Notes under the pieces: model-generated
Told to the model about the DNA's origin: nothing
Database searches by the model: none
The model's input: only the letters and a program-made list of their open reading frames with translations
Position numbers and translations under genes: made by a program
Origin: Pseudomonas sp. BN102
Lineage (GTDB): Bacteria; Pseudomonadota; Gammaproteobacteria; Pseudomonadales; Pseudomonadaceae
Assembly: GCF_029871245.1 (NCBI RefSeq)
Contig: NZ_SSON01000075.1
Span: 14,943 to 78,942, forward strand
Reading direction: 5' to 3'
Length of the DNA stretch: 64,000 nt
Shown: positions 44,476 through 60,531 of the stretch, piece by piece
Layout of the letters: each line of letters opens with the position of its first letter
Position numbering within the stretch: the first letter of the stretch is position 1

Positions 44476-45423
44476 ATGCAAATCAAACTCGCCAACCCCC
44501 GTGGCTTCTGCGCCGGCGTCGACCGCGCCATCGAGATCGTCAACCGCGCCCTCGAGGTGTTTGGCCCGCCGATCTATGTGCGCCATGAAGTGGTGCACAA
44601 CAAGTTCGTGGTCGAAGACCTGCGCGCCCGCGGCGCCGTGTTCGTCGAAGAGCTGGACCAGGTGCCGGACAACGTCATCGTCATCTTCAGCGCCCACGGC
44701 GTTTCCCAGGCCGTGCGCCAGGAGGCCGCGCGCCGCGGTCTCAAGGTGTTCGACGCCACCTGCCCGCTGGTGACCAAGGTGCACATGGAAGTCGCGCGCT
44801 ACAGCCGTGACGGCCGCGAATGCATCCTCATCGGCCATGCCGGGCACCCGGAAGTCGAAGGGACCATGGGCCAATACGACGCCAGCAACGGCGGTGCCAT
44901 CTACCTGGTGGAAGACGAGGAAGACGTCGCCCGTCTGGTGGTGCGCAACCCCGAGGCCCTGTCCTTCGTCACCCAGACCACCCTGTCGATGGACGACACC
45001 AGCCGCGTCATCGACGCACTGCGCGCCAAATTCCCCAGCATCGGCGGCCCGCGCAAGGACGACATCTGCTACGCCACCCAGAACCGCCAGGACGCGGTCA
45101 AGCAATTGGCCGGCGAAAGCGACGTGGTCCTGGTGGTCGGCAGCCCCAACAGCTCCAACTCCAACCGCCTGCGCGAACTGGCCGAACGCATGAACACCCC
45201 CGCCTACCTGATCGACGGTGCCGAGGACCTCAAGCGCGAGTGGTTCGACAAGGCGCAGAAGGTCGGCATCACCGCCGGCGCATCGGCTCCCGAAGTGCTG
45301 GTGCAGGGTGTGATCGAGAAGCTCAGGGAGTGGGGCGCCGAAGTCGCGGTCGAGCTGGATGGTCGTCCGGAGAATGTGACTTTCTCCATGCCGAAGGAAT
45401 TGCGGGTAGTCAACGTCGGCTGA
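44476..45423 (+). CDS. ispH: 4-hydroxy-3-methylbut-2-enyl diphosphate reductase
   Basis: A 315-residue Fe-S enzyme performing the last MEP-pathway step, giving IPP and DMAPP. The three cluster ligands are C12 (GFCAGV), C96 (DATCPLV) and C198 (DDICYAT), at the same positions as in E. coli within one residue. Substrate-binding [13 protein letters not shown] and SSNSNRL are intact. ATG 44476 is preceded by GAGGTAACC. It closes the ribF-ileS-lspA-fkpB-ispH run. Confidence 0.97.
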
Positions 45424-45440: not shown

Positions 45441-45956
45441 TCAACATGGGCCGGGTTGTTCTTTGGTACGACGCACCCGGCCTGTAGCACTGATCACCAA
45501 TTTTCGGACGGCCAGCTTGCCGTTGGCATGGCAGAGCACCAAGGTTCCAGCCTGAAAAGCGCCGCTGGGCATTGATGTCCGCCCTGTCGGCATATAACGC
45601 ACAAAGCGCCGCACGGGCCCGTTCCCCTTGATGATCAGCCCGTCAGGCTGCGGGCCAACCTCAGCCAACACCTGCTCACCTTCGTCCCACCTGGCGTTGT
45701 TGTTCTGATCGGCGTAAACACGCCATCCTGCGGACCAATTCTCGCCCTGGTTGTCGACCAGAACCGGGACCCTCCTGGTGACCGAAGCTTGTCTCGCCTG
45801 GTTGAAACTGACGAAGAGCGCGTGGCTTGCCGTGCTCAGTTGGTAGGACCGTATGAAGTCCGTCATTGCTGGCACGCCAAGGCTGATGAGTAGTGTGATG
45901 AGCGTCAGCACAACCAGCGCTTCGATGAGCGTGAAACCGCGAGGGATTCCAGCCAT
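45441..45956 (-). CDS. GspH/FimT family type IV pseudopilin
   Basis: A 171-residue prepilin. The leader MAGIPRG is followed by FTLIEALVVLTLITLLISLG, with Gly at -1 and Glu at +5 for PilD processing, and then a GspH domain with WSAGWRVYADQNNNARWDEGE. It is FimT-like. It is convergent with ispH (17 bases between stops) and divergent from the first minor-pilin operon. P. aeruginosa has a fimT next to its fimU operon, but on the same strand (recalled). Confidence 0.88.
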   Translation of the reverse strand: MAGIPRGFTLIEALVVLTLITLLISLGVPAMTDFIRSYQLSTASHALFVSFNQARQASVTRRVPVLVDNQGENWSAGWRVYADQNNNARWDEGEQVLAEVGPQPDGLIIKGNGPVRRFVRYMPTGRTSMPSGAFQAGTLVLCHANGKLAVRKLVISATGRVRRTKEQPGPC

Positions 45957-46309
45957 GGCATCCGTGCTCTCCTGGCGTGAACGAGTGGGCGACCTGTCGT
46001 CGGTGGTCTTGGCCCGCCCGTCGCCGATGAAAGGACGTCAGTCGGAACCGACCTATAAGCTTCTGGAATTGAAGGATTTTCTCAATGTCGCCCGATCTTT
46101 GAGGTAACGAAGAAATCTCCGGAATTTGGCGGCAGGTCACTTTGTAGCCTGTAGGAAAGGCGCATCCTATATGCGCGATTGTGCTAAGGCTTAACGCGGC
46201 CCAGTTGTTTCGCGTGGGGTCTGTCGAGTTGTCGGGTGCCAGAGACGAGGCAGGCCCGACCAAGGCTGTTGTTGGTGTGGAAGTTGCGGCAGCAGTTGGA
46301 GGGTGGAGA
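45957..46309. promoter_or_regulatory. Divergent promoter region upstream of minor-pilin operon 1
   Basis: About 350 bases with no supported gene between the FimT-like gene and the 26-codon ORF. The part around 46070-46180 is A+T-richer and probably holds promoters in both directions. No AlgR box, sigma-54 promoter or Vfr site was recognised. An ORF from 46181 runs in frame into the short ORF below but has no ribosome binding site. Confidence 0.4.
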
Positions 46310-46390
46310 ATGAGCGAGTTGAAAGGATCTCAACTGATGTCGAGGGCCGCGAAGCTGAATCCGGCATTCCTCCGGTCGTACAACCAATAA
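46310..46390 (+). CDS. Putative 26-residue leader peptide of minor-pilin operon 1
   Basis: ATG 46310 is preceded by GGAGGG at 7 bases, the best ribosome binding site in the region. The ORF reads MSELKGSQLMSRAAKLNPAF then LRSYNQ and stops 10 bases before the GTG of the first pilE-like gene. It is basic and has no membrane segment. It could be a regulatory leader peptide or a chance ORF; nothing in its sequence was recognised. Confidence 0.4.
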   Translation: MSELKGSQLMSRAAKLNPAFLRSYNQ

Positions 46391-46399
46391 GGTGACCCC

Positions 46400-46783
46400 G
46401 TGGGCAGAACGAAACAGGGTGGTTTTACCCTCATAGAACTCATGATTGCGGTCGCGATCGTTGGCATCCTGGCTGCAATCGCCTATCCCAGTTACCAGCA
46501 ATATGTGATTCGCGGGAACCGGGCTGCGGCCCAGGCGCAGATGATGGATATCGCCAACCGCCAGCAGCAGTATCTCCTGGCCAATCGTACCTATGCGACC
46601 AAGGAGCAACTTGGATACAGCCTGGAGAGTGATCTGGTCGGCAGGTACACCGATAGCGTCACTCTTGGCACTGGTGCCGTTCCCACCTTCACCATCACCT
46701 TTACCGCGACCGGCTCGCAGTCGAGCGATGGCAACCTGACCCTCAACAATGAAGGGGTCAAGACCCCGGCGGCGAAGTGGTAG
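46400..46783 (+). CDS. pilE: PilE-like type IV minor pilin, operon 1
   Basis: A 127-residue prepilin starting at GTG 46400 with AAGGTGA upstream. Leader MGRTKQGG is followed by [20 protein letters not shown], with Gly(-1) and Glu(+5). The body has the PilE pattern [20 protein letters not shown] and ends GVKTPAAKW, the typical C-terminus of environmental PilE proteins without a C-terminal cysteine pair. It is the first gene of the cluster, unlike the terminal pilE of the second cluster. Confidence 0.88.
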
Positions 46784-46788
46784 GTGCG

Positions 46789-47361
46789 ATGAGATCGTTT
46801 TCGTCCTTGAACCCACAGCGTGGCCTGACCCTCATCGAGGTACTGGTCACTATCCTCATCCTTTCCATAGGGTTGCTTGGTATGGCGGGCCTGCAGGCGC
46901 GGCTTCAGCAGTCCGAGATGGAAGCCTATCAGCGTGCCCAAGCGTTGCTGCTGCTCGATGACATGGCCAATCGCATCGCCGCTAATCGCAACGTGGCCTC
47001 GACTTACGTCACCGGAACGAGTAGCCCGCTGGGAGCCGCAATGACCTGTGCAACCGTGACCGGAACCTCCTCACGGCGCGACCGGGACATCAGCGAATGG
47101 TGCAACACTTTGCAAGGCGCGGCGGAAACGTCCGGCACGAGCAAGGTCGGCGCCATGGTCGGAGCGCGTGGTTGTGTGCAGTCACTCGGCAGCAGCCAGT
47201 ACATGGTCACCGTGGCCTGGCAGGGGATGACGCCGATTTCGGCTCCACCGGCAGGGGTGGCGTGCGGGGCCAACAGCTACAACGGCGCGACCGGGGCCGT
47301 CTGCCAGAACGATCTCTGCCGTCGTGTGGTAACCACCATAGTGCGTGTCGCGAACCTATGA
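46789..47361 (+). CDS. pilV: PilV-like type IV minor pilin, operon 1
   Basis: A 190-residue prepilin with leader MRSFSSLNPQRG before LTLIEVLVTILILSIGLLGM, the PilV/GspI signature. Longer than the PilV of operon 2 (145 residues); the extra sequence has several Cys (MTCATV, EWCNTL, RGCVQS, VACGAN, VCQNDLC). ATG 46789 is chosen over GTG 46777. It ends with a 4-base overlap with pilW. Minor pilins form the tip complex that primes pilus assembly and carries PilY1. Confidence 0.87.
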   Translation: MRSFSSLNPQRGLTLIEVLVTILILSIGLLGMAGLQARLQQSEMEAYQRAQALLLLDDMANRIAANRNVASTYVTGTSSPLGAAMTCATVTGTSSRRDRDISEWCNTLQGAAETSGTSKVGAMVGARGCVQSLGSSQYMVTVAWQGMTPISAPPAGVACGANSYNGATGAVCQNDLCRRVVTTIVRVANL

Positions 47362-48503
47362 ATGACAAGAACGTACCAATTCGCGGAATCGCGTCCGAAG
47401 GTTGCGGTCGCGGGCGGCAGTCGGGATTCAGCCTGGTCGAGCTGATGATCGCAGCCACTATCAGCTTGCTGATAATGGCGGCGGTCCTGACGCTTTTCCT
47501 GGATGTGTCGAGGACCAACGATGAAATGGCCAGGACCAATGCTCAGATCGAGAATGGCCGGTTTGCGCTGCAACTGCTCCAGGAAGACCTGGCCCATGCC
47601 GGCTTCTGGGATGGCTATGTCCCGGAGTTCGACGACCTGAGCAAGAGCGCCGTGCCGAGCGACGTTCCCACCGTGGTACCCGGACCCTGCTCGTGGAGTG
47701 CGGCCGATAATACGAATCTGATGGGTATCTCCGTGCAGGCGTATGACGATGTGCCTCCCGGTTGCAACACGATAGTCACCAACAAGAAAGCCAACACCGA
47801 TGTGCTGGTCATCCGGCATGCGGAAACCTGCCGCCCCGGGGTGGGCAACTGTGAAGCGGAAGTTGCCGGAAAGCTCTATTTCCAACCCTCTTTTTGTGCG
47901 ACCGATCCGGCGCGCTACGTGCTGGGCACCAGTGGCTTCACCATGAAGAAGAGGAACTGCACCACGCTTTCGGAGAAGCGCAAGTTCGTCTCCAACATCT
48001 ACTACGTCCGCGATTTTTCCGTGACTGCCGGGGATGGCATACCCACGCTCATGCGCTCGACATTCGGGGCAGGGGCGGCTCCAGAGGCAGCGGAGTCCCT
48101 CATTGAAGGGATAGAGGGCTTCCGAGTCGAGCTGGGCCTCGACAACGTCGGAGATGGTGGCGTGGCGAACGACTATACAGCGGCGGTCAGCTTCGCCCTG
48201 GATACCAATGGCGAAGCTGATCGCTCACGGCCAACCAACCGGGGCAACGGCGCCGCAGACGGCAACTTCGTGCGTTGCCCGGCCGCTGGCTGCACGGTGA
48301 GCCAGCTAATCGACGTGGTCGCGGTCAAGGTCTTCCTACTGGTGCGTGGCATTCAACCTTCTCCGGGTTACAGCGACGGCAAGACGTACGCCCTGGGTCT
48401 CGCCGATCCCGCCGCGGAAATTGTCGGCAGCAACTACAAGCGCCATGTCTATTCCACGACCGCGCGCCTGGTCAACGTTTCGGGACGGAGGGAAACGCCA
48501 TGA
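47358..48503 (+). CDS. pilW: PilW-like type IV minor pilin, operon 1
   Basis: A 381-residue prepilin with a long basic leader ending RGRQSG, then FSLVELMIAATISLLIMAAV (Glu +5). PilW is the GspJ-like minor pilin. Typical PilW text follows: IENGRFALQLLQEDLAHAGF and, near the C-terminus, VVAVKVFLLVRGI. It overlaps both neighbours by ATGA, so the operon is tightly coupled. It is somewhat longer than the 343-residue PilW of operon 2. Confidence 0.88.
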   Translation: MNDKNVPIRGIASEGCGRGRQSGFSLVELMIAATISLLIMAAVLTLFLDVSRTNDEMARTNAQIENGRFALQLLQEDLAHAGFWDGYVPEFDDLSKSAVPSDVPTVVPGPCSWSAADNTNLMGISVQAYDDVPPGCNTIVTNKKANTDVLVIRHAETCRPGVGNCEAEVAGKLYFQPSFCATDPARYVLGTSGFTMKKRNCTTLSEKRKFVSNIYYVRDFSVTAGDGIPTLMRSTFGAGAAPEAAESLIEGIEGFRVELGLDNVGDGGVANDYTAAVSFALDTNGEADRSRPTNRGNGAADGNFVRCPAAGCTVSQLIDVVAVKVFLLVRGIQPSPGYSDGKTYALGLADPAAEIVGSNYKRHVYSTTARLVNVSGRRETP

Positions 48504-48997
48504 TTACAAGCGCTTCGAAACGCGATCAGCAGGGCGCGACCCTGGTCGTCGGGCTGATCATGTTGCTGATGCTCACCCTCCTGGTTGGCAGCGCGTTCAC
48601 CATGAGCGGCAGCAGCCTCAAGTCGGTGGGCAATATGCAGGCGCGTGATGAAGCGCTCGCGGCTGCCAACCTCGCGACCGAACAGGTGGTCAGCTCGCCA
48701 TTCACGGATGCACCGACTGCCGAATGGATCAACGTGGATATCAATAATGACGGTGCAACTGATTACACCGTCAGCATGGCGCCCCCAACTTGCATCAGCG
48801 AAACGGAACTTCCCGTAGTCGCCGAAGGCAAGGAAAGTGGTATACGCGCAGGGGTAGTGACGCCGGATTCGCAGTGGAACACAGTCTGGGAGCTGGCGGC
48901 GACAGTGACCGACCCGGTCAGTGGTGCTGCTACGAAAGTTCGTTCGGGCGTGCGGGTCGTGCTCTCGCAAAGCGAAAAGGAAAGTGTGTGTCCGTAA
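48500..48997 (+). CDS. pilX: PilX-like type IV minor pilin, operon 1
   Basis: A 165-residue prepilin: leader MITSASKRDQQG, then ATLVVGLIMLLMLTLLVGSA. Position +5 is Val rather than Glu, as in the second PilX here and in tip-type GspK proteins. The PilX_N helix continues NMQARDEALAAANLATEQVV. Its ATG overlaps the pilW stop. In known systems PilX sits with PilV and PilW beneath PilY1. Confidence 0.87.
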   Translation: MITSASKRDQQGATLVVGLIMLLMLTLLVGSAFTMSGSSLKSVGNMQARDEALAAANLATEQVVSSPFTDAPTAEWINVDINNDGATDYTVSMAPPTCISETELPVVAEGKESGIRAGVVTPDSQWNTVWELAATVTDPVSGAATKVRSGVRVVLSQSEKESVCP

Positions 48998-49022
48998 CCG
49001 AGGATTGTTTTAGGAGAGCGGC

Positions 49023-52000
49023 ATGAGAACGGGGTTCTTGAAAGGAATGGTGGCCGCTGTGGCCCTGGCGTACTGGCTACCTGGACACGCCGAGGATATC
49101 GATCTTTTTGTGAGTTCCGCTCCCAGTGCCAACGATGTGCCGAATGTGCTGATCGTCTTGGATAACACTGCCAACTGGAACAATGCCTTCGCCAACGAAA
49201 TGGCGGCTCTGGGTACTGTGCTGAGTGGTCTGGATGCCGACAAGTTTCGTGTTGGCCTGATGTTGTTCACGGAAACTGGACAGGGCAACTCCAATACGGA
49301 TGGCGCATATGTGCGCGCGGCCATTCGACTGATGAACAGCACCAACAAGGTCAAGTACCAAGAGCTGATTCAGAGCCTCCACATCACCGATGACAAGTCC
49401 AACGGCGGCAAGGCAGGCTTGGCTATGTGGGAGGCGTACCAGTATTTTTCTGCTGGCGCACCCCATGCTGGCAATGGCAAGAACAAAGCGGACTACACAG
49501 CGAATAATTTCGGTACGGCTGCCTCAAAAGCGATTTATGCGATTTCGGAGAATGCACTTTCCTCCAAAAATGCGACCGCTTACAACACGCCTATTGCTTC
49601 GGGCTGCGCGAAAAATTTCATCATCTATATCAGTAATGGTGCAGCGCAGGACAACAACTCCGATATAACCATAGGCACCGCTGCGCTTGCCGCCGCGGGC
49701 GGTAGAACGACCGCCATTCCAATTTCCCCCAGTGGTTCGCAGGATAACGTAGCGGACGAATGGGCCCGCTTCATGAGGGCAAGCGATCTCAATATCAAGA
49801 CCTACACGCTTGATGTAAACAAGTTGACCACAGGCCAGGGGCCCGGTTGGACCGCCTTGATGAAGAGCATGGCGAACTCCAGTGGTGGGAAGTATTTCGA
49901 CGTGACGAGTACGGGGTCGGAAATTGCGGATGCACTGAATGCGGTGTTTTCTGAAATTCAACCCGTGAACAGCGCATTCGCCTCTGTCAGCCTGCCTGTG
50001 AGCGTCAATACACAAGGTACTTACCTGAACCAGGTATTCATAGGGATGTTCCGCCCTGATGAGAACATGCTGCCCCGCTGGGATGGCAACCTGAAGCAAT
50101 ACAAACTTGGTATATCCGATGGTGTCTTGAGGCTGCAAGACGCTGCTGGGAAAACAGCGGTCAATAGCTCGACCAACTTCATTACACCCTGTGCGCGTAG
50201 TTTCTGGACGCCCACGACATTGGATAGTTATTGGGCATTCAGTGGCGATGCGCAGGGTACCTGTACTGAGATTGCCAACTCGGAAAGTTCGAATACTCCG
50301 GATGGTAATGTGGTTGAGAAAGGGGGGCAGGGCTATCTATTGCGAGGTGACACTTCGCGCACCGTATACACCTGTAACCCAACCTTTGCCTCGTGCACCG
50401 AACTGACCGAGTTCACATTCAGCAACACCGACGTCTCGGCGAGCCTGCTCGGCGTCTCGGCGACAGATGATCCTTCGGATGTAGATACAATCGATGAGCG
50501 AACCGAACTGATCAACTGGGCGCGTGGCCTAGATCTCGACGACGAGAACGGAGGTGCGGTAACCACGGAAATGCGTCCTTCCGTACATGGAGACGTCGTG
50601 CACTCTCGCCCGGTAGCGATCGACTATGGCACGACTGGGGCACCAGAGGTTGTCGTGTTCTATGGCGGCAATGACGGTGTATTCCGAGCAATCAATGGCA
50701 ATCGTAGTAACAGCATCGGTGACGTCGCGGCCGGAGATGAACTCTGGTCATTCGTTCCGCCCGAGTTCTACGGAAAGCTCAATCGTCTTCGCGAAAATAC
50801 GACGACCATCCGATTCCAAGGTAGCGAGGGTGGCGAGCCCAAGGACTACGGCATTGATGGGCCGATCACGGCGTTTCGCGGAAGCATCAGCGGCACGCAG
50901 AAGACCTTCATTTACGCGGGAATGCGTCGCGGCGGACGAGCTCTTTACGCATTCGACGTTACCGATCCGGCCAGCCCGGAGCTGAAGTGGAAGGCCGGCT
51001 GCCCGAACCAGGGCGACGATACTGGCTGCAGCGTCGGCATGAGTGGAGTTGGTCAGACCTGGTCATCCGCGATGGTGCTGAAAGCCTCAGGCTATGATTC
51101 TGGAAACTCGCCGCTACTGATCATGGGCGGGGGGTATGACAACTGCGAGGATACAGACGACGGCACGTCCAATCATTCATGTACCAGTTCCAGCAAGGGC
51201 AACAAGATATATGTACTGGACGCCCAAACCGGTGCGGTGCAAGCAACGCTGAATACCTTGCGGGGCGTAATTGGCGACGTGACCGTGGTGCCCGACAGCT
51301 CCGGACTGGCAGCATATGCATATGCTGCGGATCTCGGGGGAAATATCTATCGAATCGCCATGGGCAACGCCGCACCAGGGAGCTGGTCAATCACCCGTAT
51401 CGCAGCGCTGGGATGTGACAATGGCGGTAGTTGCGATAGCAACCGGAAGTTCATGTTCGCGCCAGAGGTCGTTTCCTCTGGTGGAAGCTACTTCTTGCAG
51501 ATTGGTTCGGGAGATAGGGAAAAACCATTGAGCAGCTATGCTGCGACAGCCGGCGTTGCCAACTATTTCTTCAATATCAAGGATCGGCCGACCGACGCTG
51601 ACTGGCTTTCTACTGGTACATGTACGGGTAGTGTGATCTGCCTGGATTCACTGCTGGAGATTTCCGATAGTTCCAACCCGACCCAGGCGGATCTGAACTC
51701 TAAGCCAAAGGGCTGGCGCCTTGCGTTGTCTCCCGCGGAACAGGTGGTGACCTCGGCGGTGACTGTGTTCGGTCGGATTGTATTCAATACCCATGAGCCT
51801 ACGCCTCCTGATCCGGGCGCCTGTACCACTCTCGGTACCAACCGTGCCTATAACATTGCCTACACAGATGCCTCGGGATTGGATGGGGATCGCTTCGTCG
51901 AACTCGAGGGGGGTGGATTGTCCCCATCCCCAGTGGCAGGCACGGTCAAACTGGATGATGGCACCGAACTGCCATTTGTCTGTATGCTCGATTGCTTTGA

Positions 52001-52070
52001 GCCGGACCCTGAGTTCACTTCGGTTGTACAACCCAAAGGCCGGGTTTACTGGAGCATCGACCGAGAATGA
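49023..52070 (+). CDS. pilY1: PilY1-like pilus tip adhesin, operon 1 (divergent copy)
   Basis: A 1015-residue exported protein. Signal peptide MRTGFLKGMVAAVALAYWLP with cleavage near GHA-ED. An N-terminal von Willebrand A-like domain (~38-330) starts VLIVLDNTANWNN, where the metal-binding DxSxS is replaced by D-N-T-A-N. The C-terminal PilY1 propeller (~515-960) contains VVFYGGNDGVFRAINGN, YAGMRRGGRALYAFDVTDP and AADLGGNIYRI. The calcium-loop position reads D758-S-S-G-L, lacking the usual acidic ligands. The gene is clearly richer in A+T than its neighbours. AGGAGA precedes the ATG. Confidence 0.9.
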   Translation: MRTGFLKGMVAAVALAYWLPGHAEDIDLFVSSAPSANDVPNVLIVLDNTANWNNAFANEMAALGTVLSGLDADKFRVGLMLFTETGQGNSNTDGAYVRAAIRLMNSTNKVKYQELIQSLHITDDKSNGGKAGLAMWEAYQYFSAGAPHAGNGKNKADYTANNFGTAASKAIYAISENALSSKNATAYNTPIASGCAKNFIIYISNGAAQDNNSDITIGTAALAAAGGRTTAIPISPSGSQDNVADEWARFMRASDLNIKTYTLDVNKLTTGQGPGWTALMKSMANSSGGKYFDVTSTGSEIADALNAVFSEIQPVNSAFASVSLPVSVNTQGTYLNQVFIGMFRPDENMLPRWDGNLKQYKLGISDGVLRLQDAAGKTAVNSSTNFITPCARSFWTPTTLDSYWAFSGDAQGTCTEIANSESSNTPDGNVVEKGGQGYLLRGDTSRTVYTCNPTFASCTELTEFTFSNTDVSASLLGVSATDDPSDVDTIDERTELINWARGLDLDDENGGAVTTEMRPSVHGDVVHSRPVAIDYGTTGAPEVVVFYGGNDGVFRAINGNRSNSIGDVAAGDELWSFVPPEFYGKLNRLRENTTTIRFQGSEGGEPKDYGIDGPITAFRGSISGTQKTFIYAGMRRGGRALYAFDVTDPASPELKWKAGCPNQGDDTGCSVGMSGVGQTWSSAMVLKASGYDSGNSPLLIMGGGYDNCEDTDDGTSNHSCTSSSKGNKIYVLDAQTGAVQATLNTLRGVIGDVTVVPDSSGLAAYAYAADLGGNIYRIAMGNAAPGSWSITRIAALGCDNGGSCDSNRKFMFAPEVVSSGGSYFLQIGSGDREKPLSSYAATAGVANYFFNIKDRPTDADWLSTGTCTGSVICLDSLLEISDSSNPTQADLNSKPKGWRLALSPAEQVVTSAVTVFGRIVFNTHEPTPPDPGACTTLGTNRAYNIAYTDASGLDGDRFVELEGGGLSPSPVAGTVKLDDGTELPFVCMLDCFEPDPEFTSVVQPKGRVYWSIDRE

Positions 52071-52603
52071 GCGGCTTACCCATGAACGTGGGGAGGGCGG
52101 GCGGCGCCAGGCGGCGCTGCTCCGCAGGCTTCACCCTGATCGAGTTGATGGTCACGCTGGTGGTGTTGGCAGTCTTGCTGGGAATCGCAATTCCCTCCTT
52201 TACCGACGTCACCCTGGCTAGCAAGCTTCGGTCCCAGGCGAACGAGCTGGTTGCCGGAGCGCAGCTCGCTCGCAGCGAGGCCATCAAGCGCAACCAGCCG
52301 GTGACGTTTTGCGCTTCGGCAAACGGCTCAACCTGCGCTTCGTCGGGAGGCTGGGAGCAGGGCTGGATAGTGCGCAACTCCGGCGGCACGGTGGTGCAGG
52401 CCCATCCGGCTGCTCCGAGCGGGTACCTGATTTCCTCCGCTGTGCAGAGCATTGCATTCCAACCCACGGGCACGGCCTCGGCGAGCGCTGTATTGAAGGT
52501 CTGCCGCGCTTCTCCGGATGAGGGCGATCAGGAGCGTCTGATTTCCATCAGCGTCACGGGACGCGCCTCGGTGTCCAAGACTAACGACGGTACCTGTCCC
52601 TGA
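52067..52603 (+). CDS. FimU/FimT-like (GspH family) minor pilin, operon 1
   Basis: A 178-residue prepilin, last gene of operon 1. A long leader (ending RRRCSAG) precedes FTLIELMVTLVVLAVLLGIA with Gly(-1) and Glu(+5). The GspH body has ANELVAGAQLARSEAIKRNQ and WEQGWIVRNSGG, with paired cysteines in FCASANGSTCAS. The ATG at 52067 overlaps the pilY1 stop (ATGA); ATG 52082 is an alternative. Its first 20 mature residues closely match FimU of operon 2, but the DNA differs at many wobble positions. Confidence 0.87.
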   Translation: MSGLPMNVGRAGGARRRCSAGFTLIELMVTLVVLAVLLGIAIPSFTDVTLASKLRSQANELVAGAQLARSEAIKRNQPVTFCASANGSTCASSGGWEQGWIVRNSGGTVVQAHPAAPSGYLISSAVQSIAFQPTGTASASAVLKVCRASPDEGDQERLISISVTGRASVSKTNDGTCP

Positions 52604-52675
52604 CCCGGGACGTGCCGTCGCAAGGATCAATCGGGCGCACATCTTCACTTGCCGCTGCCTTAGAATCCCCTTCCC

Positions 52676-52697
52676 GGTGCCGGCTTCCGCCGGCACC
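52676..52697 (+). terminator. Hairpin between minor-pilin operon 1 and thiO
   Basis: GGTGCCGGC-TTCC-GCCGGCACC, a 9-bp perfect stem 73 bases after the fimU-like stop. There is no T-run. It may end operon 1 or lie in the thiO leader. Confidence 0.45.
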
Positions 52698-52798
52698 CTG
52701 ATACTGCGTTCATATTCTCCGGGCGCTGCTTGCGCGAGGCTCCCGTGGGCGCCCATTGCCTGCGACGCTCCGGATTTCCCAGTTGTTCTGGAGGTTCC

Positions 52799-53890
52799 AT
52801 GCGCGTTTTGCTGGTCGGTGGGGGGGCTATCGGGTTGCTGTCGGCATACCTGTTGGCACGGGACGGAGTCGAGGTCTGCTTGTTGGACAAGGGGCCTTGT
52901 GGCCGCGAGTCGTCCTGGGCCGGTGGCGGTATCGTCTCGCCGCTCTATCCCTGGCGCTATTCCTCGGCCGTGACGGCACTGGCGCATTGGTCCCAGGACT
53001 TCTACCCCCAGTTTGGCCAGCGCTTGTTCGCTGAAACCGGAATAGACCCGGAGGTCTATGAGACCGGCCTGTATTGGCTGGATCTGGACGACGAGGCCGA
53101 GGCCCTGGCGTGGGCCGCTCGCGAAGGGCGGCCGCTGGCGCCGGTGGCGATGGACCAAGTGCATGCCGCCGTGCCGCCGCTCGGGCCGGGTTTCCAGCGT
53201 GCCATCCATATGGCTGGCGTGGCCAATGTGCGCAATCCCCGACTGACGCGCGCCCTGCGCGAGGCTTTGCTGCGCATGCCGAACGTGACCCTGCATGAGT
53301 CCTGTGAGGTGCGTGGTTTCATTCGCGATGGTCAGCGAATCACCGGGGTGAGCACCGCTGGCGGAGAGTTCCTGGCGGACCGCGTGGTGCTGGCGGCCGG
53401 TGCCTGGAGTGGTGAGCTGCTGGCCAGTCTTGGTCTGGCCTTGCCGGTGGAGCCGGTGAAGGGGCAGATGATTCTCTTCAAGTGTGCCGAGAACTTCTTG
53501 CCGGCCATGGTGCTGGCGAAGGGGCGCTATGCGATCCCGCGCCGGGACGGGCATATCCTCGTGGGCAGTACTTTGGAGCATGCCGGTTTCGACAAGACGC
53601 CCACCAGCGAAGCCTTGGAAAGCCTGAAGGCATCCGCCTTCGAACTGCTGCCGCAATTGAAGGATGCCGAGCTGGTGGGGCACTGGGCGGGTTTGCGTCC
53701 GGGCTCGCCAGACGGGATTCCCTTTATCGGTCCTGTGCCCGGGGCGGACGGCCTGTGGCTGAACTGCGGCCATTACCGCAACGGGCTGGTGCTGGCGCCG
53801 GCATCGTGCCGATTGCTGGCGGACCTGATGTTGGGGCGTGCGCCGATCATCGATCCGCAGCCATACGCGCCGGTGGGGCGCCTGGGGTGA
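52799..53890 (+). CDS. thiO: Glycine oxidase ThiO / D-amino acid oxidase family
   Basis: A 363-residue FAD-dependent oxidase. The N-terminal Rossmann motif VLLVGGGAIGLLSAYLLARD (GxGxxG), ESSWAGGGIVSPLYPWRY, and the C-terminal GLRPGSPDGIPFIGPVPG with NCGHYRNGLVLAP are diagnostic. It would oxidise glycine or D-amino acids to the imine and H2O2; ThiO supplies iminoglycine for thiamine thiazole. GGAGG lies 5 bases before ATG 52799. In P. aeruginosa the same gene borders fimT/fimU; here it separates two pilin operons. Confidence 0.93.
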   Translation: MRVLLVGGGAIGLLSAYLLARDGVEVCLLDKGPCGRESSWAGGGIVSPLYPWRYSSAVTALAHWSQDFYPQFGQRLFAETGIDPEVYETGLYWLDLDDEAEALAWAAREGRPLAPVAMDQVHAAVPPLGPGFQRAIHMAGVANVRNPRLTRALREALLRMPNVTLHESCEVRGFIRDGQRITGVSTAGGEFLADRVVLAAGAWSGELLASLGLALPVEPVKGQMILFKCAENFLPAMVLAKGRYAIPRRDGHILVGSTLEHAGFDKTPTSEALESLKASAFELLPQLKDAELVGHWAGLRPGSPDGIPFIGPVPGADGLWLNCGHYRNGLVLAPASCRLLADLMLGRAPIIDPQPYAPVGRLG

Positions 53891-54087: not shown

Positions 54088-54124
54088 ATGGAAGGTCGGC
54101 AAGGTCGGGGCAGGAAGCTCCGCG

Positions 54125-54144: not shown

Positions 54145-54173
54145 AGGTCAGGACCATTCTATGAGGGCAGGGA

Positions 54174-54638
54174 ATGTCGCAGCGAGGTTTCACGCTGATC
54201 GAACTGATGGTCACGCTCGTCGTGCTCGCAGTATTGATCAGTTTGGCAGCACCGAATCTTTCCCAGATGCTTCGCGAGAACCAGGCAGCGGCAGAACTTG
54301 AAGCGTTCTCCGGCATGCTCAGCTATGCGCGACGCGAAGCGGTCCAGGGGGCTCAAACCGTAAGGCTCAAGGGGCCGCTGGCGGCCGATGGCAGCTGGCA
54401 GTTGTTGCGCGAGCGGGACAGCCTGGAACTGCGCCGCTTCCCGCCCCTCACCTCATTCGTGGCCGGACCGGCGGGGCTGCAAGACATTCTCTTCGACTCG
54501 CAGGGCCGCCTGGTCAGCGCGGCCAGGATGGCTTTCACCCTGGCGTTAAAGGACGCGTCACTGGGCTGCACCACTTTCAATCGCAGCGTTTCCATCGAGC
54601 TGTCCGGTTCGATTTCCCTGCAGAAGCGAGGCTGCTGA
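54174..54638 (+). CDS. fimU: FimU (GspH family) minor pilin, operon 2
   Basis: A 154-residue prepilin with a very short leader MSQRG before FTLIELMVTLVVLAVLISLA. Gly(-1) and Glu(+5) are present. The GspH-type body has LEAFSGMLSYARREAVQGAQ and ends in a Cys (LQKRGC) matching LGCTTFN, suggesting a disulfide. It is the first gene of operon 2 and overlaps pilV by one base (TGATG). FimU in P. aeruginosa links the PilVWXY1 tip complex to the major pilin. Confidence 0.9.
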   Translation: MSQRGFTLIELMVTLVVLAVLISLAAPNLSQMLRENQAAAELEAFSGMLSYARREAVQGAQTVRLKGPLAADGSWQLLRERDSLELRRFPPLTSFVAGPAGLQDILFDSQGRLVSAARMAFTLALKDASLGCTTFNRSVSIELSGSISLQKRGC

Positions 54639-55075
54639 TGAGTGCGTCGTCCCAACGAGGGGCCTCGCTCATCGAGGTCCTGGTCGCAGTGCTCCTCTTC
54701 TCCATTGGTGTACTGGGTCTGGCTGCCATGCAGCTCACCGCGTTGAAGGCGAACCAGACCGCGTCCGTACGCTCCCATGCGACCTTCCTGGCCTACGAGA
54801 TGGCGGATCGCATGCGCGCGGCGCGGGGAGATGCGCAGGCGGGGTTCTACAACCTGGCGGTTGGCGCCGCCCTGCCCTGTGATCCGGTCAAGGAAACCTG
54901 CCTGCCTTTCCAGCGGGACCTGGCGGAATGGCGCGCCAATCTTGCCCGGCAACTGCCGGAGGGGAGTGGCGGTGTGGTGCAGAACGGTGACCGCTTCACG
55001 GTGATCGTGCAATGGAACGAGGAGCGGGTGGGCGGAAACGCCGCTCAGCAGTTCTCCTTCGTCACGCAGATTTGA
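54638..55075 (+). CDS. pilV: PilV minor pilin, operon 2
   Basis: A 145-residue prepilin: leader MSASSQRG, then ASLIEVLVAVLLFSIGVLGL (Glu +5), the PilV signature, followed by NQTASVRSHATFLAYEMADR. Two Cys in LPCDPVKETCLPF likely pair. Translation is probably coupled to fimU through the overlapping TGATG. It is shorter than the operon 1 copy and closer to P. aeruginosa PilV in layout. Confidence 0.92.
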   Translation: MSASSQRGASLIEVLVAVLLFSIGVLGLAAMQLTALKANQTASVRSHATFLAYEMADRMRAARGDAQAGFYNLAVGAALPCDPVKETCLPFQRDLAEWRANLARQLPEGSGGVVQNGDRFTVIVQWNEERVGGNAAQQFSFVTQI

Positions 55076-55085
55076 CGGGGTGCTC

Positions 55086-56117
55086 ATGCGCAAGCAACGC
55101 GGCTTGAGCCTGGTGGAGCTGATGGTGGCCATGGTGATCGGCCTGGTCATCAGCCTGGCTGTCCTCCAGGTCTTCATCAGCAACAAGAACACCTTCCTCC
55201 TCCGGGGGGCAGCGGGAAAGCTGCAGGAAAACGGGCGCTTCGCCCTGCAATACCTCGCCGCCGAACTGCGCCCTGCGGGAGTGGGGGTGGGGACTCGGCT
55301 CGATGAGGACGACATCTGCGTGGTGGCCGCCAAAGGCGACTCCGCGGAATGGAGCGCCATGAACCGCCCCATCTGGGGAAAACGCATCACGGCAACCGGC
55401 GGCCTCGGGGTGGTAGGCACCGACCAGCTGGCGATCTTCGCCAATGACGGTTGCGAGTCCTTTCTCACCGCCGGCGAGCTGCTCAAGCCCTCGCTCAATG
55501 CGAATCTCAAGGTCACGGCCTACTGCCCGAGCATGCAGCAGGACCATGCGGTGATGGTGCTGGACATGGAGAAGGCGGTGGTCATCCGGATCACCAACAA
55601 GCCGAATTCGTCCGGCAACGGCCAGGTGACGCTGACCCATGCCGCGAGCAACAACGACATGAACGCCAAGTGCGGTGGCTTCAAGTTCTCGGATATCCAG
55701 TTCAACGCCCCGGCGCGGGTGGTGGGCTTCGCCTACAGGACCTTCTATGTGGCGGATACAGGCCGCGTCACGGCAACCGGGCAGCCCATCCGCGCCTTGT
55801 TCGTCCGCGACGCGGCGCAGATTCCCGCGCAGACCAACGAAGTCGTAGAAGGCGTTGAGTCGCTGCGCACCAGTTTCGGCGTGGCGGCGGACAACAGTGT
55901 CGGCGTGCAGACGTACCTGAGCCCGGCCGAGGTGGAAGCGGCCAACCGTTGGGATGATGTCCGCACGGTGAAGATCGATCTGCTGCTGGCCAGCAATGAT
56001 CGAGTAGCGGGAGCCCAGGACCAGGCTGTCCAGTTCGGGGGGGCGGCAGTGGCGGCGGATGGGCGCCTGCGCCAGGTATTCAGCACGGTAGTGGCCCTGC
56101 GCAACCGGGTCGACTGA
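55086..56117 (+). CDS. pilW: PilW minor pilin, operon 2
   Basis: A 343-residue prepilin with leader MRKQRG and mature start LSLVELMVAMVIGLVISLAV. The region LQENGRFALQYLAAELRPAG is typical of PilW. ATG 55086 gives the usual short leader; GTG 55080 is the only alternative. It starts 10 bases after pilV. Cysteines occur in DDICVVAA, DGCESF, AYCPSM and AKCGGF. Confidence 0.92.
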   Translation: MRKQRGLSLVELMVAMVIGLVISLAVLQVFISNKNTFLLRGAAGKLQENGRFALQYLAAELRPAGVGVGTRLDEDDICVVAAKGDSAEWSAMNRPIWGKRITATGGLGVVGTDQLAIFANDGCESFLTAGELLKPSLNANLKVTAYCPSMQQDHAVMVLDMEKAVVIRITNKPNSSGNGQVTLTHAASNNDMNAKCGGFKFSDIQFNAPARVVGFAYRTFYVADTGRVTATGQPIRALFVRDAAQIPAQTNEVVEGVESLRTSFGVAADNSVGVQTYLSPAEVEAANRWDDVRTVKIDLLLASNDRVAGAQDQAVQFGGAAVAADGRLRQVFSTVVALRNRVD

Positions 56118-56133: not shown

Positions 56134-56646
56134 ATGCAAAAGCAAAAAGGAGCGGTGCTGCTGGTTTGCCTGATCGCTCTCCTGGCATTGACCGTGCTGG
56201 GGGTTACGGCGATGTCCGGCAGCACCCTGCAGGAGCGCATGGCCGGTGGTGCGCGGGACTACAACGTGGCGTTCCAGGCGGCCGAGAGCGCCTTGCGGGT
56301 GGGCGAGGCCTATGTGCGCCAACAGGTGGAGGCCAGCGTCGATCCTACCCAGTTGTTCCTGGCCAGCACCGATTGCCCGGCTGTCACGGCAGCACAGTGG
56401 ACGCCGCCCGCCGAACTCAACAGCAATCCGCGTAAGCCGGTCTGCAAGGTGCGCAATTTCTACGGTGCGTCGGGCGGCGCGACCACCTTCGTGTGCGAAA
56501 CCGACGGCTCGATCGCCGAGAACCGCGCGTTCGACTGCCTGAGCCGGACCTATCTGTTCAACGTCGAAGCCACCGGTTACGCCGGCGGGGATGCCGAAGT
56601 GCACCTGCGCTCCACCGTGGCCATTGCCATCCGCAGCCAGAACTGA
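56134..56646 (+). CDS. pilX: PilX minor pilin, operon 2
   Basis: A 170-residue prepilin: leader MQKQKG, then AVLLVCLIALLALTVLGVTA. Position +5 is Val instead of Glu. The PilX_N helix continues with STLQERMAGGARDYNVAFQA and AESALRVGE, a strong family match. AAGGA precedes the ATG. PilX is the minor pilin placed nearest PilY1 in current tip-complex models. Confidence 0.93.
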   Translation: MQKQKGAVLLVCLIALLALTVLGVTAMSGSTLQERMAGGARDYNVAFQAAESALRVGEAYVRQQVEASVDPTQLFLASTDCPAVTAAQWTPPAELNSNPRKPVCKVRNFYGASGGATTFVCETDGSIAENRAFDCLSRTYLFNVEATGYAGGDAEVHLRSTVAIAIRSQN

Positions 56647-56662: not shown

Positions 56663-59600
56663 ATGATCGGCTCGAAATACTTCTTTGCGGTACGGGCATT
56701 GCTGGCCGGCCTGCTGACCGCCGCAGTCAGCCACAGCGCCCTGGCGGCATTCGTGCCCGGGCAGGTGCCGTTGAACCTGGGGGGGCAGGTCGAGCCGAAC
56801 CTCGCCTTCATCCTGGACGACTCGGGTTCCATGCGCTGGGGCTTCCTGCCTGACGATCTGAAACCCTCCTATCTGGAGCGGACGGGCGATTGGTACGAGC
56901 GCAAAGAGTGTGCCGACAGGGGCAGCTATGCGGGCAGCAACCTGCATTTTTGCCCAAAGTCCGGTCATCGCTACCTGGCCTCCAGTCACTTGAACAAGTC
57001 CTACTACAACCCGACCGTGCAGTACCTGCCGCCCATCAAGAGCGACGGGCAACGCTACGCCAATGCCAGCTTCACGGCCGCCTACCTTAATGGCTATACC
57101 GGAGGGCAGACGGTCAACCTCGCCAGTAGCTATATGGCAATCATGGATGACTTCTTCTCGCCCAACAGCTACGAGTGCTTGAACAAGCGTTGCAGCGACG
57201 TCGCGTATTACAACGGCTTTGCCATAGGCTCGGCGAACGGGGGCGGCGCGGCCTTCTACTACGAGTTCACCGGAGGGGGCAGCTGTGTCAGCAATCCCCG
57301 CCAGGATGCCTGCTATGCCGAACGTAGCGTGGGCGCCGCTGAGCAACAGAACTTCGCCAACTGGTTCTCCTACTATCGGACCCGCATGATGTCGGCCAAG
57401 GCCGGGGTCAGTCAGGCATTTTCCGCGCTGCCCGGAGACATCCGGGTTGGCTACGGTGCGATCAACCTGACCGAGAACACCGTCGATTCGCGCAAGACCG
57501 ATACGCTGGTGCGCGGCGTGCGTCGATTCGAGGGGACCGGGCGCTCCGAGTTCTATGACTGGCTGTTCGCGGCCAACGCCTCGGGAGGCACCCCCCTGCG
57601 CAAGGCGCTGGGTGATGCGGGTGAGTATTACGCCCGCCAGGACGCGGTGGGGCCCTGGAGTTCGACGCCAGGTCAGGCCGGAGGGAAGGACTACGCCTGT
57701 CGGCAGAGCTATACCATCCTCACCACCGATGGTTACTGGAACGGTGATGCAGCGTCCAAGGAAGCCGCCCGCGCCAACGTGGATAACAGCAACGGCCCGG
57801 TGATCAGCGGGCCGGATGGGCAGACCTATCGTTATGTGCCCAAGGCGCCATTCAGCGACAGCGAGAAAAGTACCCTGGCGGACGTCGCCATGTACTACTG
57901 GAGCCGCGACCTGCATGACACCCTGGCCAACCGCGTGCCGACCGATCCGGCGGACCCCGCATTCTGGCAGCACATGGTGACCTTCGGCGTCGGTCTGGGC
58001 ATGAGCGGCACCATTGACCCGCAGACTGCGTTCGCCGCAGTCAAGAATGGCGCCGCGGTGACCTGGCCCAGCCCGACCAGCAGCGCCCCGGCCAAGCTGG
58101 ATGACCTGCTGCACGCGGCGGTCAATGGTCGTGGTGGTTTCTTCAGCGCCCAGGACCCACAGCAGTTCGCCACCGCCCTAGGCGAGACCCTGGCGTCGAT
58201 CAGCGATCGTACCGGCTCGAACACCTCGGCCGTGCCCAATGCACGCCGCCTGGACAGCAACACTCAGGTCTACGAGGCCTTCTATACCAGCTCGGACTGG
58301 TCCGGAAAATTGCTGGCGAAAAAGCCCAAGCAAACCAGCGCCGGCATCGTTTTCGAGGAAGTCTGGGAGGCGGGACAGAAACTGGGGCGCACCTCGCGCA
58401 GCCTGCTCACCCACGACGGCGTCGCGGGCGCCAATCATGGCCAGGCGTTGAACTGGAGCGGCCTCAGCGCGGAACTCAAGGCGCACTTCAATGACGATGA
58501 GGCGCTGTTCAACTACCTGATGGGCGATCGCACGAACGAGGCGCCGGCCGGCAGGAAATTCCGCAAGCGCTCCACCCTGCTCGGCGATATCGTCAACTCC
58601 ACCCTGGTGTTGGCCAACAAGCAGGATTGGGGCTTCCATGGCCGGGTGCCCGTCGCCAGTGGCGGCCAGACCTATGCCGAGTTCGTCGCCGCCAAGTCGA
58701 GCAAGTCGCCGGTGCTGTTCGTCGGCGCCAACGATGGCTTCTTGCACGCCTTCAACGCCAACAATGGCAACGAACTCTTCGCCTACATGCCCAACGGCGT
58801 GCTGGGTAACGTCAAGCTCCTGGCCAACAGCGACTACAAGCACCGCTACTTTGTGGACGGCAAACTGCACATCCGCGATGCCCGCCTGAACGGTGCCTGG
58901 CGTACCGTGCTGCTCGGCAGCCTCGGGGCTGGTGGGAAAAGCGTCTTCGCCCTGGATGTCACGGACGCCTCCGGCAGCACCGGATTCAGTGCCAGCAAGG
59001 TGCTGTGGGAGATCAAGGACGACGCCGACCTGGGCTACAACTTCGGCGAGCCATTGGTCGGGCGCATGAAGGACGGCAGCTGGGCGGCGATCTTCGGCAA
59101 CGGCCACGGCAGCACCAACGATGACTCGGTGCTGTTCATCGTCGACCTGGCCACCGGCGCCGTGAACAAGGTGCGCGCGGGCAAGGCCACGGGCGGCCTG
59201 TCCAGCCCGTCCTTCGTGTATGCCACCGACAGCTCGGGCAACATCTACGTGAAGGATGTGTACGCCGGTGATCTCGGCGGCAACCTGTGGAAGTTCAACC
59301 TCAAGGGCAATGGTTCCGGCGTCGGCGATTTCGAGGTCAGCCTGACCTCCGGCAACAAGCCGCAGCCGCTCTACGTCGCGACCGATACCGCGGGGACGCG
59401 CCAGCCGATCACCGTCAAACCGGAAATCGCCTACCACCCGGACGGCTATGCGCAGGGGGCCATCGTCTATTTCGGCACCGGCCGGCTCTATACCTCGGGG
59501 GATGTGGTCGACACGACCAAGCAGACCTTCTATGGCATCTGGGACAAGCTGACGAGCAACGGCTCCTCCACCGCCTTCAGCGGTCGTTCGGACCTTGAGC

Positions 59601-60118
59601 AGCGTTCGATACTGTTCGAGGGCGAGGCCTTCGATCGCGATGTGCGGGTGCTCGACGCACCGGCCACGGCCATTGACTGGAGCAAGAAACGCGGCTGGTA
59701 CCTTGATCTGACCTCTCCGGTCAAGGGCGCCCAGGGCGAGCGGGTAATCTTCGCGCCGCGCATCCTGCTCAATCGCCTGGTCATCGAAACCGCCATCCCC
59801 TCTGCCGACCCCTGTCTGGCCGGCGGTTCCGGCTGGACCATGGTGCTCGACCTGGCAACCGGCGGGCGGCTCAACTATGTCCTGCTGGACCTGAACAAGG
59901 ACGGCAAATTCACCGATGCAGATATGGTCACGGTCGGCGACCAGAAGCTTCCGCCGTCCGGCATCGGCTCTTCCGGCAGCATACCCACCGGATCATTCGA
60001 CCTGATCGATCCGCAGAAGTACTGGCTGTGCCGAGGCACCGGGGTGGATGACTGCATTCCGGCCGCCAATACCCTCAATGTTCTCGAAGGCCGTCAGTCC
60101 TGGAACCAGATTCGATGA
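56663..60118 (+). CDS. pilY1: PilY1 pilus tip adhesin / mechanosensor, operon 2
   Basis: A 1151-residue exported protein. Signal peptide about 1-29 (AVSHSALA-AF). The von Willebrand A domain starts FILDDSGSMRWG, with a canonical DxSxS metal site at 53-57, and a large Tyr/Cys-rich insert follows (~75-230). The C-terminal PilY1 propeller (~650-1060) contains VLFVGANDGFLHAFNANNG and YAGDLGGNLWKF. The propeller calcium loop position reads D856-S-S-G-N, weaker than the usual DxNxDG. A separate EF-hand-like DLNKDGKFTDAD lies at 1076-1087. PilY1 supports pilus extension, adhesion and surface-dependent virulence/c-di-GMP signalling. ATG 56663 has GGGAGA upstream. Confidence 0.94.
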   Translation: MIGSKYFFAVRALLAGLLTAAVSHSALAAFVPGQVPLNLGGQVEPNLAFILDDSGSMRWGFLPDDLKPSYLERTGDWYERKECADRGSYAGSNLHFCPKSGHRYLASSHLNKSYYNPTVQYLPPIKSDGQRYANASFTAAYLNGYTGGQTVNLASSYMAIMDDFFSPNSYECLNKRCSDVAYYNGFAIGSANGGGAAFYYEFTGGGSCVSNPRQDACYAERSVGAAEQQNFANWFSYYRTRMMSAKAGVSQAFSALPGDIRVGYGAINLTENTVDSRKTDTLVRGVRRFEGTGRSEFYDWLFAANASGGTPLRKALGDAGEYYARQDAVGPWSSTPGQAGGKDYACRQSYTILTTDGYWNGDAASKEAARANVDNSNGPVISGPDGQTYRYVPKAPFSDSEKSTLADVAMYYWSRDLHDTLANRVPTDPADPAFWQHMVTFGVGLGMSGTIDPQTAFAAVKNGAAVTWPSPTSSAPAKLDDLLHAAVNGRGGFFSAQDPQQFATALGETLASISDRTGSNTSAVPNARRLDSNTQVYEAFYTSSDWSGKLLAKKPKQTSAGIVFEEVWEAGQKLGRTSRSLLTHDGVAGANHGQALNWSGLSAELKAHFNDDEALFNYLMGDRTNEAPAGRKFRKRSTLLGDIVNSTLVLANKQDWGFHGRVPVASGGQTYAEFVAAKSSKSPVLFVGANDGFLHAFNANNGNELFAYMPNGVLGNVKLLANSDYKHRYFVDGKLHIRDARLNGAWRTVLLGSLGAGGKSVFALDVTDASGSTGFSASKVLWEIKDDADLGYNFGEPLVGRMKDGSWAAIFGNGHGSTNDDSVLFIVDLATGAVNKVRAGKATGGLSSPSFVYATDSSGNIYVKDVYAGDLGGNLWKFNLKGNGSGVGDFEVSLTSGNKPQPLYVATDTAGTRQPITVKPEIAYHPDGYAQGAIVYFGTGRLYTSGDVVDTTKQTFYGIWDKLTSNGSSTAFSGRSDLEQRSILFEGEAFDRDVRVLDAPATAIDWSKKRGWYLDLTSPVKGAQGERVIFAPRILLNRLVIETAIPSADPCLAGGSGWTMVLDLATGGRLNYVLLDLNKDGKFTDADMVTVGDQKLPPSGIGSSGSIPTGSFDLIDPQKYWLCRGTGVDDCIPAANTLNVLEGRQSWNQIR

Positions 60119-60531
60119 GAAGCAGCAAGGCATTCACCCTGATTGAACTGATGATCGTGGTGGCGGTGATCGGCATCCTCGCCGCGATCGCCTATCCCAA
60201 CTACGCGGAGCATGTGAGGCGGGGCAAGCGCGCCGAGGTGAAGGCGGCCTTGATGGAAGGCGCGCAGGCGCTGGAGCGTTACTACTCCACCCACGGCTCC
60301 TACCTCGATTCCGAAGGCAACTTTGCGGATACCTTTGCCACGCAGGCGCCGGCTTCAGGGGCGGCCAACTACACCATCGCCGCCCAGGGCGCCCCAACCG
60401 CAACCACCTACCAGCTGCGTGCCACCCGCACCGGCAGCATGGCGGATGACCCTTGCGGCGACCTCCAGATCAGCCACACCGGCGAGCGCACGCTGGCCAA
60501 TGCCACGCGTACGGTGGCCCAGTGCTGGTAG
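60115..60531 (+). CDS. pilE: PilE minor pilin, operon 2, with Ala at -1
   Basis: A 138-residue prepilin overlapping the pilY1 stop by 4 bases. The leader is MRSSKA before [20 protein letters not shown], so the residue before the cleavage site is Ala (codon GCA) instead of the near-invariant Gly. Glu(+5) is present. The body NYAEHVRRGKRAEVKAALME and the C-terminal disulfide pair (DPCGDL...AQCW) are typical PilE. No pilY2 gene intervenes, unlike P. aeruginosa. Confidence 0.92.
   Translation: MRSSKAFTLIELMIVVAVIGILAAIAYPNYAEHVRRGKRAEVKAALMEGAQALERYYSTHGSYLDSEGNFADTFATQAPASGAANYTIAAQGAPTATTYQLRATRTGSMADDPCGDLQISHTGERTLANATRTVAQCW

Follow-up and report, generated by a model that had tools for sequence, protein, structure and literature searches.

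Two neighbouring minor pilin operons of Pseudomonas sp. BN102 are, in our main reading (probability roughly 0.8), each predicted to encode a complete type IVa pilus tip (priming) complex, and the first of them (operon 1) represents a separate lineage with a derived gene order, which in this genus forms an exchangeable cassette flanked by ispH/fimT on one side and thiO on the other. The DNA analysed, referred to below as the window, is a stretch of 64,000 nt from a genome of 6.48 Mb in 81 contigs. Close named relatives of the source are Pseudomonas sp. JM0905a and P. resinovorans, and we infer that it probably belongs to the Metapseudomonas group.

Read along the + strand, the locus consists of ileS, lspA, ispH, a fimT-like gene (- strand), operon 1, thiO, the second operon (operon 2), and then pilR and pilS, both on the - strand. 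The left conserved flank is ispH (44479..45423, +), with ileS and lspA upstream; whichever operon comes next, its protein is 93-99% identical across 15 of the 17 remaining genus members (in G004 and G017, ispH lies outside the fetched stretch). On the right, pilR (60700..62037, -), followed by pilS, is 86-99% identical in 16 of these 17 genomes, its position in G001 being outside the fetched stretch. The fimT-like gene (45441..45956, -; PF12019, 60.5 bits), which encodes a GspH-domain pilin and is divergent from operon 1, is a third GspH-type gene that the initial annotation did not mention; the same is true of thiO (52799..53890, +), at the start of which the exchanged block described below ends.

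All twelve genes of the 2 operons are open and on the + strand, and adjacent genes within each operon either overlap or lie no more than 25 bp apart. Pfam and NCBIfam profiles were used to verify both the family of each gene and its start. Operon 1 begins with a PilE-type minor pilin gene (46400..46783; PF16732, ComP_DUS/PilE, 60.7 bits), followed by pilV (46789..47361; TIGR02523, 69.7 bits against a cut-off of 52.2), pilW (47358..48503; PF16074, 69.3 bits; start corrected), pilX (48500..48997; PF14341, PilX_N, 29.7 bits against a cut-off of 25.5; start corrected) and a pilY1 gene of 1015 codons (49023..52070; PF05567, 43.3 bits), and ends in the FimU position with a GspH-type minor pilin gene (52082..52603; PF12019, 71.7 bits). 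Operon 2 begins with its GspH-type gene (54174..54638; PF12019, 30.4 bits against a cut-off of 21), continues with pilV (54638..55075; TIGR02523, 97.1 bits), pilW (55086..56117; PF16074, 67.6 bits), pilX (56134..56646; PF14341, 49.5 bits) and a pilY1 gene of 1151 codons (56663..60118; PF05567, 191.9 bits), and has its PilE-type gene last (60115..60531; PF16732, ComP_DUS/PilE, 82.7 bits). Gene calls and profiles thus agree with the 2 orders given in the initial annotation, namely PilE-V-W-X-Y1-GspH type for operon 1 and GspH type-V-W-X-Y1-PilE for operon 2.

In both operons the prepilin N-terminal motif PF07963 was above cut-off in the PilE-type, PilV, PilW and GspH-type genes, and the PilV, PilW, PilX and GspH families were above their curated cut-offs. 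The C-terminal beta-propeller of PilY1 was found in both as well, the PF05567 match of operon 1 being partial (positions 41-282 of 411). Compared with the PilY1 structure PDB 3hx6, operon 1 PilY1 matched with E 8.8e-11 over residues 549-700 and operon 2 PilY1 with E 2.9e-83. A search for an N-terminal von Willebrand A domain gave only TIGR03436 at 20.2 bits (cut-off 81.25) for operon 1 PilY1, and none was listed at E 0.01 for operon 2 PilY1. The 2 operons differ in base composition, most of operon 1 having a lower GC3 (0.619-0.776, with PilY1 lowest at 0.619) than operon 2 (0.755-0.843), and the global identity of the six protein pairs is only 25-38%. With tblastn at E 0.001, operon 1 PilY1 found only itself in its own genome. 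Scans for regulatory sites gave little: the sequence CCGTTNGTC, which we take to be an AlgR-like box, occurs once in the window, within pilR, against a chance expectation of 1.42, and one sigma-70-like promoter was found in 45900-60800, where 3.4 were expected.

In P. aeruginosa, PilV, PilW, PilX and PilY1 have been proposed, in the portion of the source available, to form an initiating core that FimU and PilE link to PilA (PMC5979040). By analogy of gene content, each operon here would encode a PilV-W-X-Y1 core plus two linker pilins, one FimU-type (with the GspH domain) and one PilE. A single PilO and a single PF00114 pilin are encoded in the source genome, and most likely, therefore, both tip sets serve one machine; the two sets would then give alternative tips, with different PilY1 adhesins, on shared equipment. 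It is possible, though we think it somewhat unlikely, that the 2 operons instead serve distinct filaments or states, such as twitching versus DNA uptake. In Xylella, the accessible text of one report describes a minor pilin set needed for twitching and knock-outs of the other set with variable, mostly opposite, effects (PMC9956873). The single PilO and single PF00114 pilin argue for one machine, with which tips specialised for particular conditions would still be compatible. The adhesion targets of a type IV pilus, and the way a cell senses surfaces, are thought to be set by PilY1 and the minor pilins, and in genomes with two tips the reason for keeping both is directly testable by deleting one set.

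At genus, family and class level, loci were retrieved by means of an operon 1-like or operon 2-like PilY1, or by PilW, and their genes were typed with profiles built from the sequences analysed here. With H for the GspH-type and E for the PilE-type gene, three order classes were distinguished: class C, (H)H-V-W-X-Y1-E, which includes the canonical operon and operon 2; class M, E-H-V-W-X-Y1; and class A, E-V-W-X-Y1-H, which includes operon 1. Class A was found in many Pseudomonadaceae and in Variovorax, Ramlibacter, Caenimonas, Azoarcus and other Betaproteobacteria, and class M in Massilia, Noviherbaspirillum, Nitrincola, Stutzerimonas, a Gallionellaceae MAG and Cupriavidus metallidurans CH34. 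An operon 1-like PilY1, classes A and M taken together, was present in 43 of 198 family genomes at E 1e-60; the operons of these two classes were gathered by their similarity to operon 1 PilY1. A survey by PilW, independent of operon 1, placed none of 40 loci inside the A+M clade, these loci having been chosen by eye from the score-ranked PilW matches listed rather than drawn at random, and three of them (G142, G174 and G177) having been fetched earlier. Six of the 40 (L145, L147, L166, L169, L170 and L172) carry a second or partial second set, so stacked tip operons are not rare. One survey locus, L182 (G220), has the order E-V-W-X-Y1-H-E, with the first E gene 0.8 kb upstream, and belongs to a PilW lineage outside A+M. 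The PilE-first order arose independently in this case, so kinship cannot be proved from gene order alone. The inference from order to separate origin made in the initial annotation is to that extent weaker than claimed, and it is the trees described below that carry the point.

We observed that the ispH-thiO interval is occupied differently by close relatives. Of the 18 members of the genus, 7 have class A there, in every case followed by operon 2 beyond thiO; 1 has class M together with operon 2; 1 has class M with no second PilW, its contig stopping just past thiO; and 9 have the canonical class C operon. One of these 9 (G007; L068) has kept the canonical operon in place and has a class A operon at another site. 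(The G005 locus is split over two contigs.) In Pseudomonadaceae loci with class A or M at ispH-thiO, the fimT-like gene has the same position and orientation, with the exception of L105, in which an H gene adjoins thiO. We considered whether this gene might be a remnant of the canonical fimT; this was not supported, since it falls in its own clade and does not join canonical fimT, though the deep branches of that tree are weak.

In a tree of the flanks of 30 Pseudomonadaceae loci, a subset that we selected, operon class has changed at least 8 times, and classes A and M each need 6 changes, also when starred branches alone are counted. The shuffle mean was 13.3, and class thus still partly tracks kinship. 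Well-supported sisters of differing class in this tree are L103 (M) and L097 (A), L098 (A) and L105 (M), L026 (A) and L078 (M), and L102 (M) and L117 (C). Two of these pairs were aligned across the site. L026 and L078 are 96% identical over the 9.3 kb from thiO through operon 2 and 45-61% identical across the cassette, with the right border at the thiO frame and a left border less sharp than in the other two pairs that were compared. L103 and L097, from another genus, have left-flank identities of 94% and 90%, a left break ~84 bp past the start of the pilE motif, and a match that resumes at thiO. Together with the window and L077, treated below, these make three genome pairs from two genera in which the recombination block spans the cluster and spares the flanks.

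Replacement would run by ordinary homologous recombination between the conserved flanks, with the 5' end of pilE, which codes for the conserved N-terminal helix, acting as the left anchor; the incoming DNA would likely have been acquired by transformation. A dedicated mobile element (an integrase, transposon or plasmid) could in principle have moved the cassette instead, and we regard this as improbable. It would account for class A operons at other sites: in the Pseudomonadaceae, 11 of the 27 class A rows are at ispH-thiO, and the other 16, L068 of G007 among them, have no thiO in the fetched stretch and therefore sit elsewhere (among these, L093 has a match to ispH and L082 one to ileS). Against it, there is no tRNA in the window, the segment from ispH to pilR leaves no gap larger than 0.45 kb beyond the pilus genes and thiO, and none of 72,556 plasmid records carries a close relative; eight of these records matched operon 1 PilY1, the best, a Cupriavidus megaplasmid, at 32.6% identity. 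The ispH-thiO interval is in any case a favourite site of class A and not the sole one, and the 16 rows elsewhere lowered our confidence both in the cassette reading and in a broader one. In the latter, which we consider doubtful, whole tip cassettes of different lineage and gene order would dock generally at ispH-thiO, giving one pilus machine a new tip in several genera, and the pilE-first order itself would favour exchange: pilE at the front would place a conserved coding stretch at the cassette edge, later used as a recombination anchor. Outside the Pseudomonadaceae, class A or M adjoins ispH or thiO in L028, L030, L035, L055, L106 and L108. A site of whole-tip swaps, with borders precise almost to the base, constitutes a natural experiment on which tip parts are compatible with the machine and the shaft.

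The borders of the exchanged block were most clearly seen in the comparison of the window with L077. In 250-bp windows, identity was 92-99% in the left flank, 63-79% in operon 1, 86-98% in thiO and mostly 92-97% in operon 2, where it fell to 77-84% towards the 5' end of pilY1 and to 87% at the end of that gene. In 40-bp windows the left border fell near 46580, ~180 bp into pilE, identity being 95-100% at 46381-46580 and 68-78% thereafter, so that the first 180 bp of pilE go with the left flank in this pair; at the right border, 52801, identity climbed from 74% to 98%. The dS values for this pair, which were computed from stop-to-stop frames and in some cases take in bases before the start codon, were 0.5-2.0 across operon 1 as against 0.10-0.25 across operon 2; dN/dS was 0.10-0.28 throughout. 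Different rates of protein change therefore cannot explain the divergence. A comparison with L026 was less telling (dS of 0.6-1.7 in operon 1 and 0.6-1.0 in operon 2).

These data bear on the proposal that operon 1 was vertically inherited and has evolved fast under diversifying selection on exposed tips, which we consider very improbable. PilY1 and the minor pilins do face outside, and in the compared pairs ispH, thiO and pilR have diverged less than operon 1 PilY1; yet the synonymous-divergence contrast, on which plain fast evolution was rejected, comes with abrupt borders, and L078 has a class M operon beside a thiO and operon 2 that share 96% DNA identity with those of L026. Also, a sister relationship between the class A operons of the window and L077 was rejected (p-AU 3e-10; the pair was named after an earlier tree had been seen).

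The separate origin of operon 1 was examined in phylogenies of all six families. The main set comprised 102 operons (48 of class C, 35 of class A and 19 of class M), with 101 rows for E and X, and single-protein trees of PilY1, PilW, PilE, PilV and PilX were made with FastTree. Rows were left out when they came from the same genomes as other rows (L080, L075, L065, L088, L092, L091, L083 and L101), from short contigs or partial loci (L038, L041, L056, L094, L109, L111, L112 and L122) or from close relatives of rows that were kept (L034, L036, L046, L047, L048, L050 and L060), as were the second, partial PilY1 of L107 and the truncated H of L027; the H of L066 was renamed to class A. In the five single-protein trees class A formed one clade (support 98-100), and A+M was split from C with support of 97-100, but 82 for X. 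The order labels needed 2 changes in each of these trees, compared with ~43-44 in shuffles. In these five families class A arises from a grade of class M operons, itself nested among class C operons; of the trees of individual genes, only those of Y1 and V have starred branches that make M necessarily paraphyletic. A concatenation of V, W, X, Y1 and E from 50 operons, a subset of our choosing, gave 100/100 for A and for A+M with IQ-TREE, and M was paraphyletic in all 200 bootstrap trees counted. In a tree with few M rows, L078_M dropped to the base of A on a long branch.

The H family was analysed on 77 rows, likewise selected by us. The class A clade, which includes the GspH-type gene of operon 1, was recovered with 100/99, and A and M formed separate clades, unlike the nesting seen in the other five families; A+M as one clade was neither found nor rejected (p-AU 0.25). 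As predicted for a separate origin, all six operon 1 proteins thus fall in one E-V-W-X-Y1-H clade, share one outside lineage and lie apart from their operon 2 partners. The class A clade is common to Pseudomonadaceae and Betaproteobacteria. GTDB places Betaproteobacteria in Burkholderiales, and with all Betaproteobacteria so labelled, the class A PilY1 tree needs 5 host changes by parsimony, of which starred branches force only 2 (for the Pseudomonadaceae label). In the concatenated tree operon 2 is far from operon 1 and groups with its genus counterparts and with G521, G553 and G404.

A tandem duplication, in which either operon gave rise to the other and the end genes were rearranged later, might be suggested by the shared strand and core order of the 2 operons and by the mere 1.6 kb between them. 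It has a negligible probability in our estimate, given the 25-38% identities, the grouping of operon 1 with Betaproteobacteria and other Pseudomonadaceae in six families, paralogues that are not each other's closest relatives, the rejection of a joint clade of genus operon 1 and operon 2 copies (p-AU 1.2e-58), the locus of L096, where class A occupies this site and thiO is followed at once by pilR, and the 8 of 18 genus members that have neither operon. The initial annotation had argued against a simple tandem duplication on the ground that it would not produce the observed order. The trees do reject a duplicate, but the argument from order is the weaker one, for a duplication with subsequent gene loss would yield the rotated order E-H-V-W-X-Y1.

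Operon 2, located between thiO and pilR, is itself non-canonical and also falls outside the canonical operon lineages of the genus. Its PilY1 reaches only 1 of the 9 canonical members of the genus at E 1e-60 (G004, 40% identity), and its nearest kin on the tree are other operon 2 copies, followed by G521, G553 and G404; from this distance and this tree position, operon 2 is not descended from the sampled canonical operons. In L063, which lacks operon 2, the match blocks of thiO and pilR abut (15600/15606), and in the window they are 6.8 kb apart. In G521 the operon 2 lineage is located between a class M operon and thiO, and perhaps, therefore, the lineage was inserted more than once.

As for how the class A order arose, the sequence of events seems to have been C to M, with PilE taken to the front, and then M to A, with H taken to the back, a polarity that rests on a root among the class C rows, the chosen outgroup not forming one side of a branch. 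The VWXY1 core kept its order throughout, and it is the linker genes, PilE and GspH-type, that moved. The initial annotation had described the end genes as having exchanged ends; this was no exchange between the 2 operons of this locus, and there were apparently two steps, PilE forward and the GspH-type gene backward later. In the second step H may have been replaced rather than moved, the p-AU for A+M in the H family being 0.25. The different order would predate the transfer, with E moved forward and H then moved backward or replaced.

The canonical fimU-pilVWXY1-pilE operon of P. aeruginosa contains the same six families in the same core order, and canonical members of the genus have their operon in the same neighbourhood of ispH, thiO, pilR and pilS. 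Operon 1 differs from it in having PilE first and the GspH-type gene last, in lying on the other strand relative to ispH and in belonging to a separate lineage, and the locus described here differs in the presence of a second operon. For a P. stutzeri strain, the available part of one account proposes that a minor pilin cluster was horizontally acquired (PMC6505155). That cluster resembles ours in its low GC3 and its host family, and its order read backwards may fit E-H-V-W-X-Y1 if one 'fimT' is PilE-type; the same part of the account contains no second operon, borders or gene-order analysis (PMC6505155). More than one tip set per genome is also described in the accessible portions of reports on Myxococcus xanthus, which has several minor pilin/PilY1 sets, PilY1.3 being thought to be horizontally acquired (PMC13190605), and on Xylella fastidiosa (PMC9956873); there the sets occupy separate clusters or regions, and those portions describe no swap at a single site (PMC13190605, PMC9956873). 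Among the literature matches listed, in a search that covered titles and abstract openings of freely available papers, none concerned exchange between order classes at ispH-thiO or a two-step change of order. The closest parallel is the comC/fimU cluster of Acinetobacter baumannii, in which, according to the part of the source available, the whole cluster is a recombination block that spares its flanks (PMC10374093). In that system, as the same text has it, gene order is constant across the genus (PMC10374093), whereas here blocks of three order classes and of different lineage take each other's place at one site, with borders inside pilE and at thiO, and the locus has gained a second operon. 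Whole-cluster exchange is therefore known from Acinetobacter, and exchange between gene-order classes seems to be new.

When its genes were compared with those of two loci from other genomes, L026 and L073, operon 1 (window 46400-52603, plus strand; PilE-type pilin, PilV, PilW, PilX, PilY1, GspH-type pilin) looked mosaic, since its PilY1 was nearer to L026 than to L073 (84% vs 77%) and its PilE-type, PilV, PilW and GspH-type proteins were nearer to L073.

The PilE-first order is also found in L182, a minus-strand set (G220:C16:1-15000, 260-9711) that reads E-V-W-X-Y1-H-E in the gene letters of operon 1 and stands divergent from an H-V-W-X set. The PilW lineage of L182 does not fall within the operon 1 clade, and its PilE-first order is of separate, independent origin. 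In genomes chosen irrespective of operon 1, a second VWXY1 set, whole or partial, was observed at 5 loci (L145, L147, L169, L170 and L172), stacked in one direction.

Outside operons 1 and 2, a divergent fimT-like gene (window 45441-45956, minus strand) is retained next to operons of both class A, the order of operon 1, and class M (E-H-V-W-X-Y1); within the canonical loci of 7 members of the genus, its best matches were only 24-33% identical. A fourth GspH-domain gene of the genome from which the window comes (contig 78, 4099-4461, minus strand) is distant from both operons.

In the class A operon of L098 (genome G436), gene typing recognised no GspH-type gene after PilY1. In L037 (P. nicosulfuronedens), the class A PilY1 (2547-5840) appears to be divided between two open frames; the gene is broken, or the split is a sequencing error. 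Genome G007 retains a canonical operon at ispH-thiO, the interval that holds operon 1, and carries its class A operon (L068; contig 23, 7336-13482) at a second site; L068 offers an opportunity to observe entry of the cassette into a new location.
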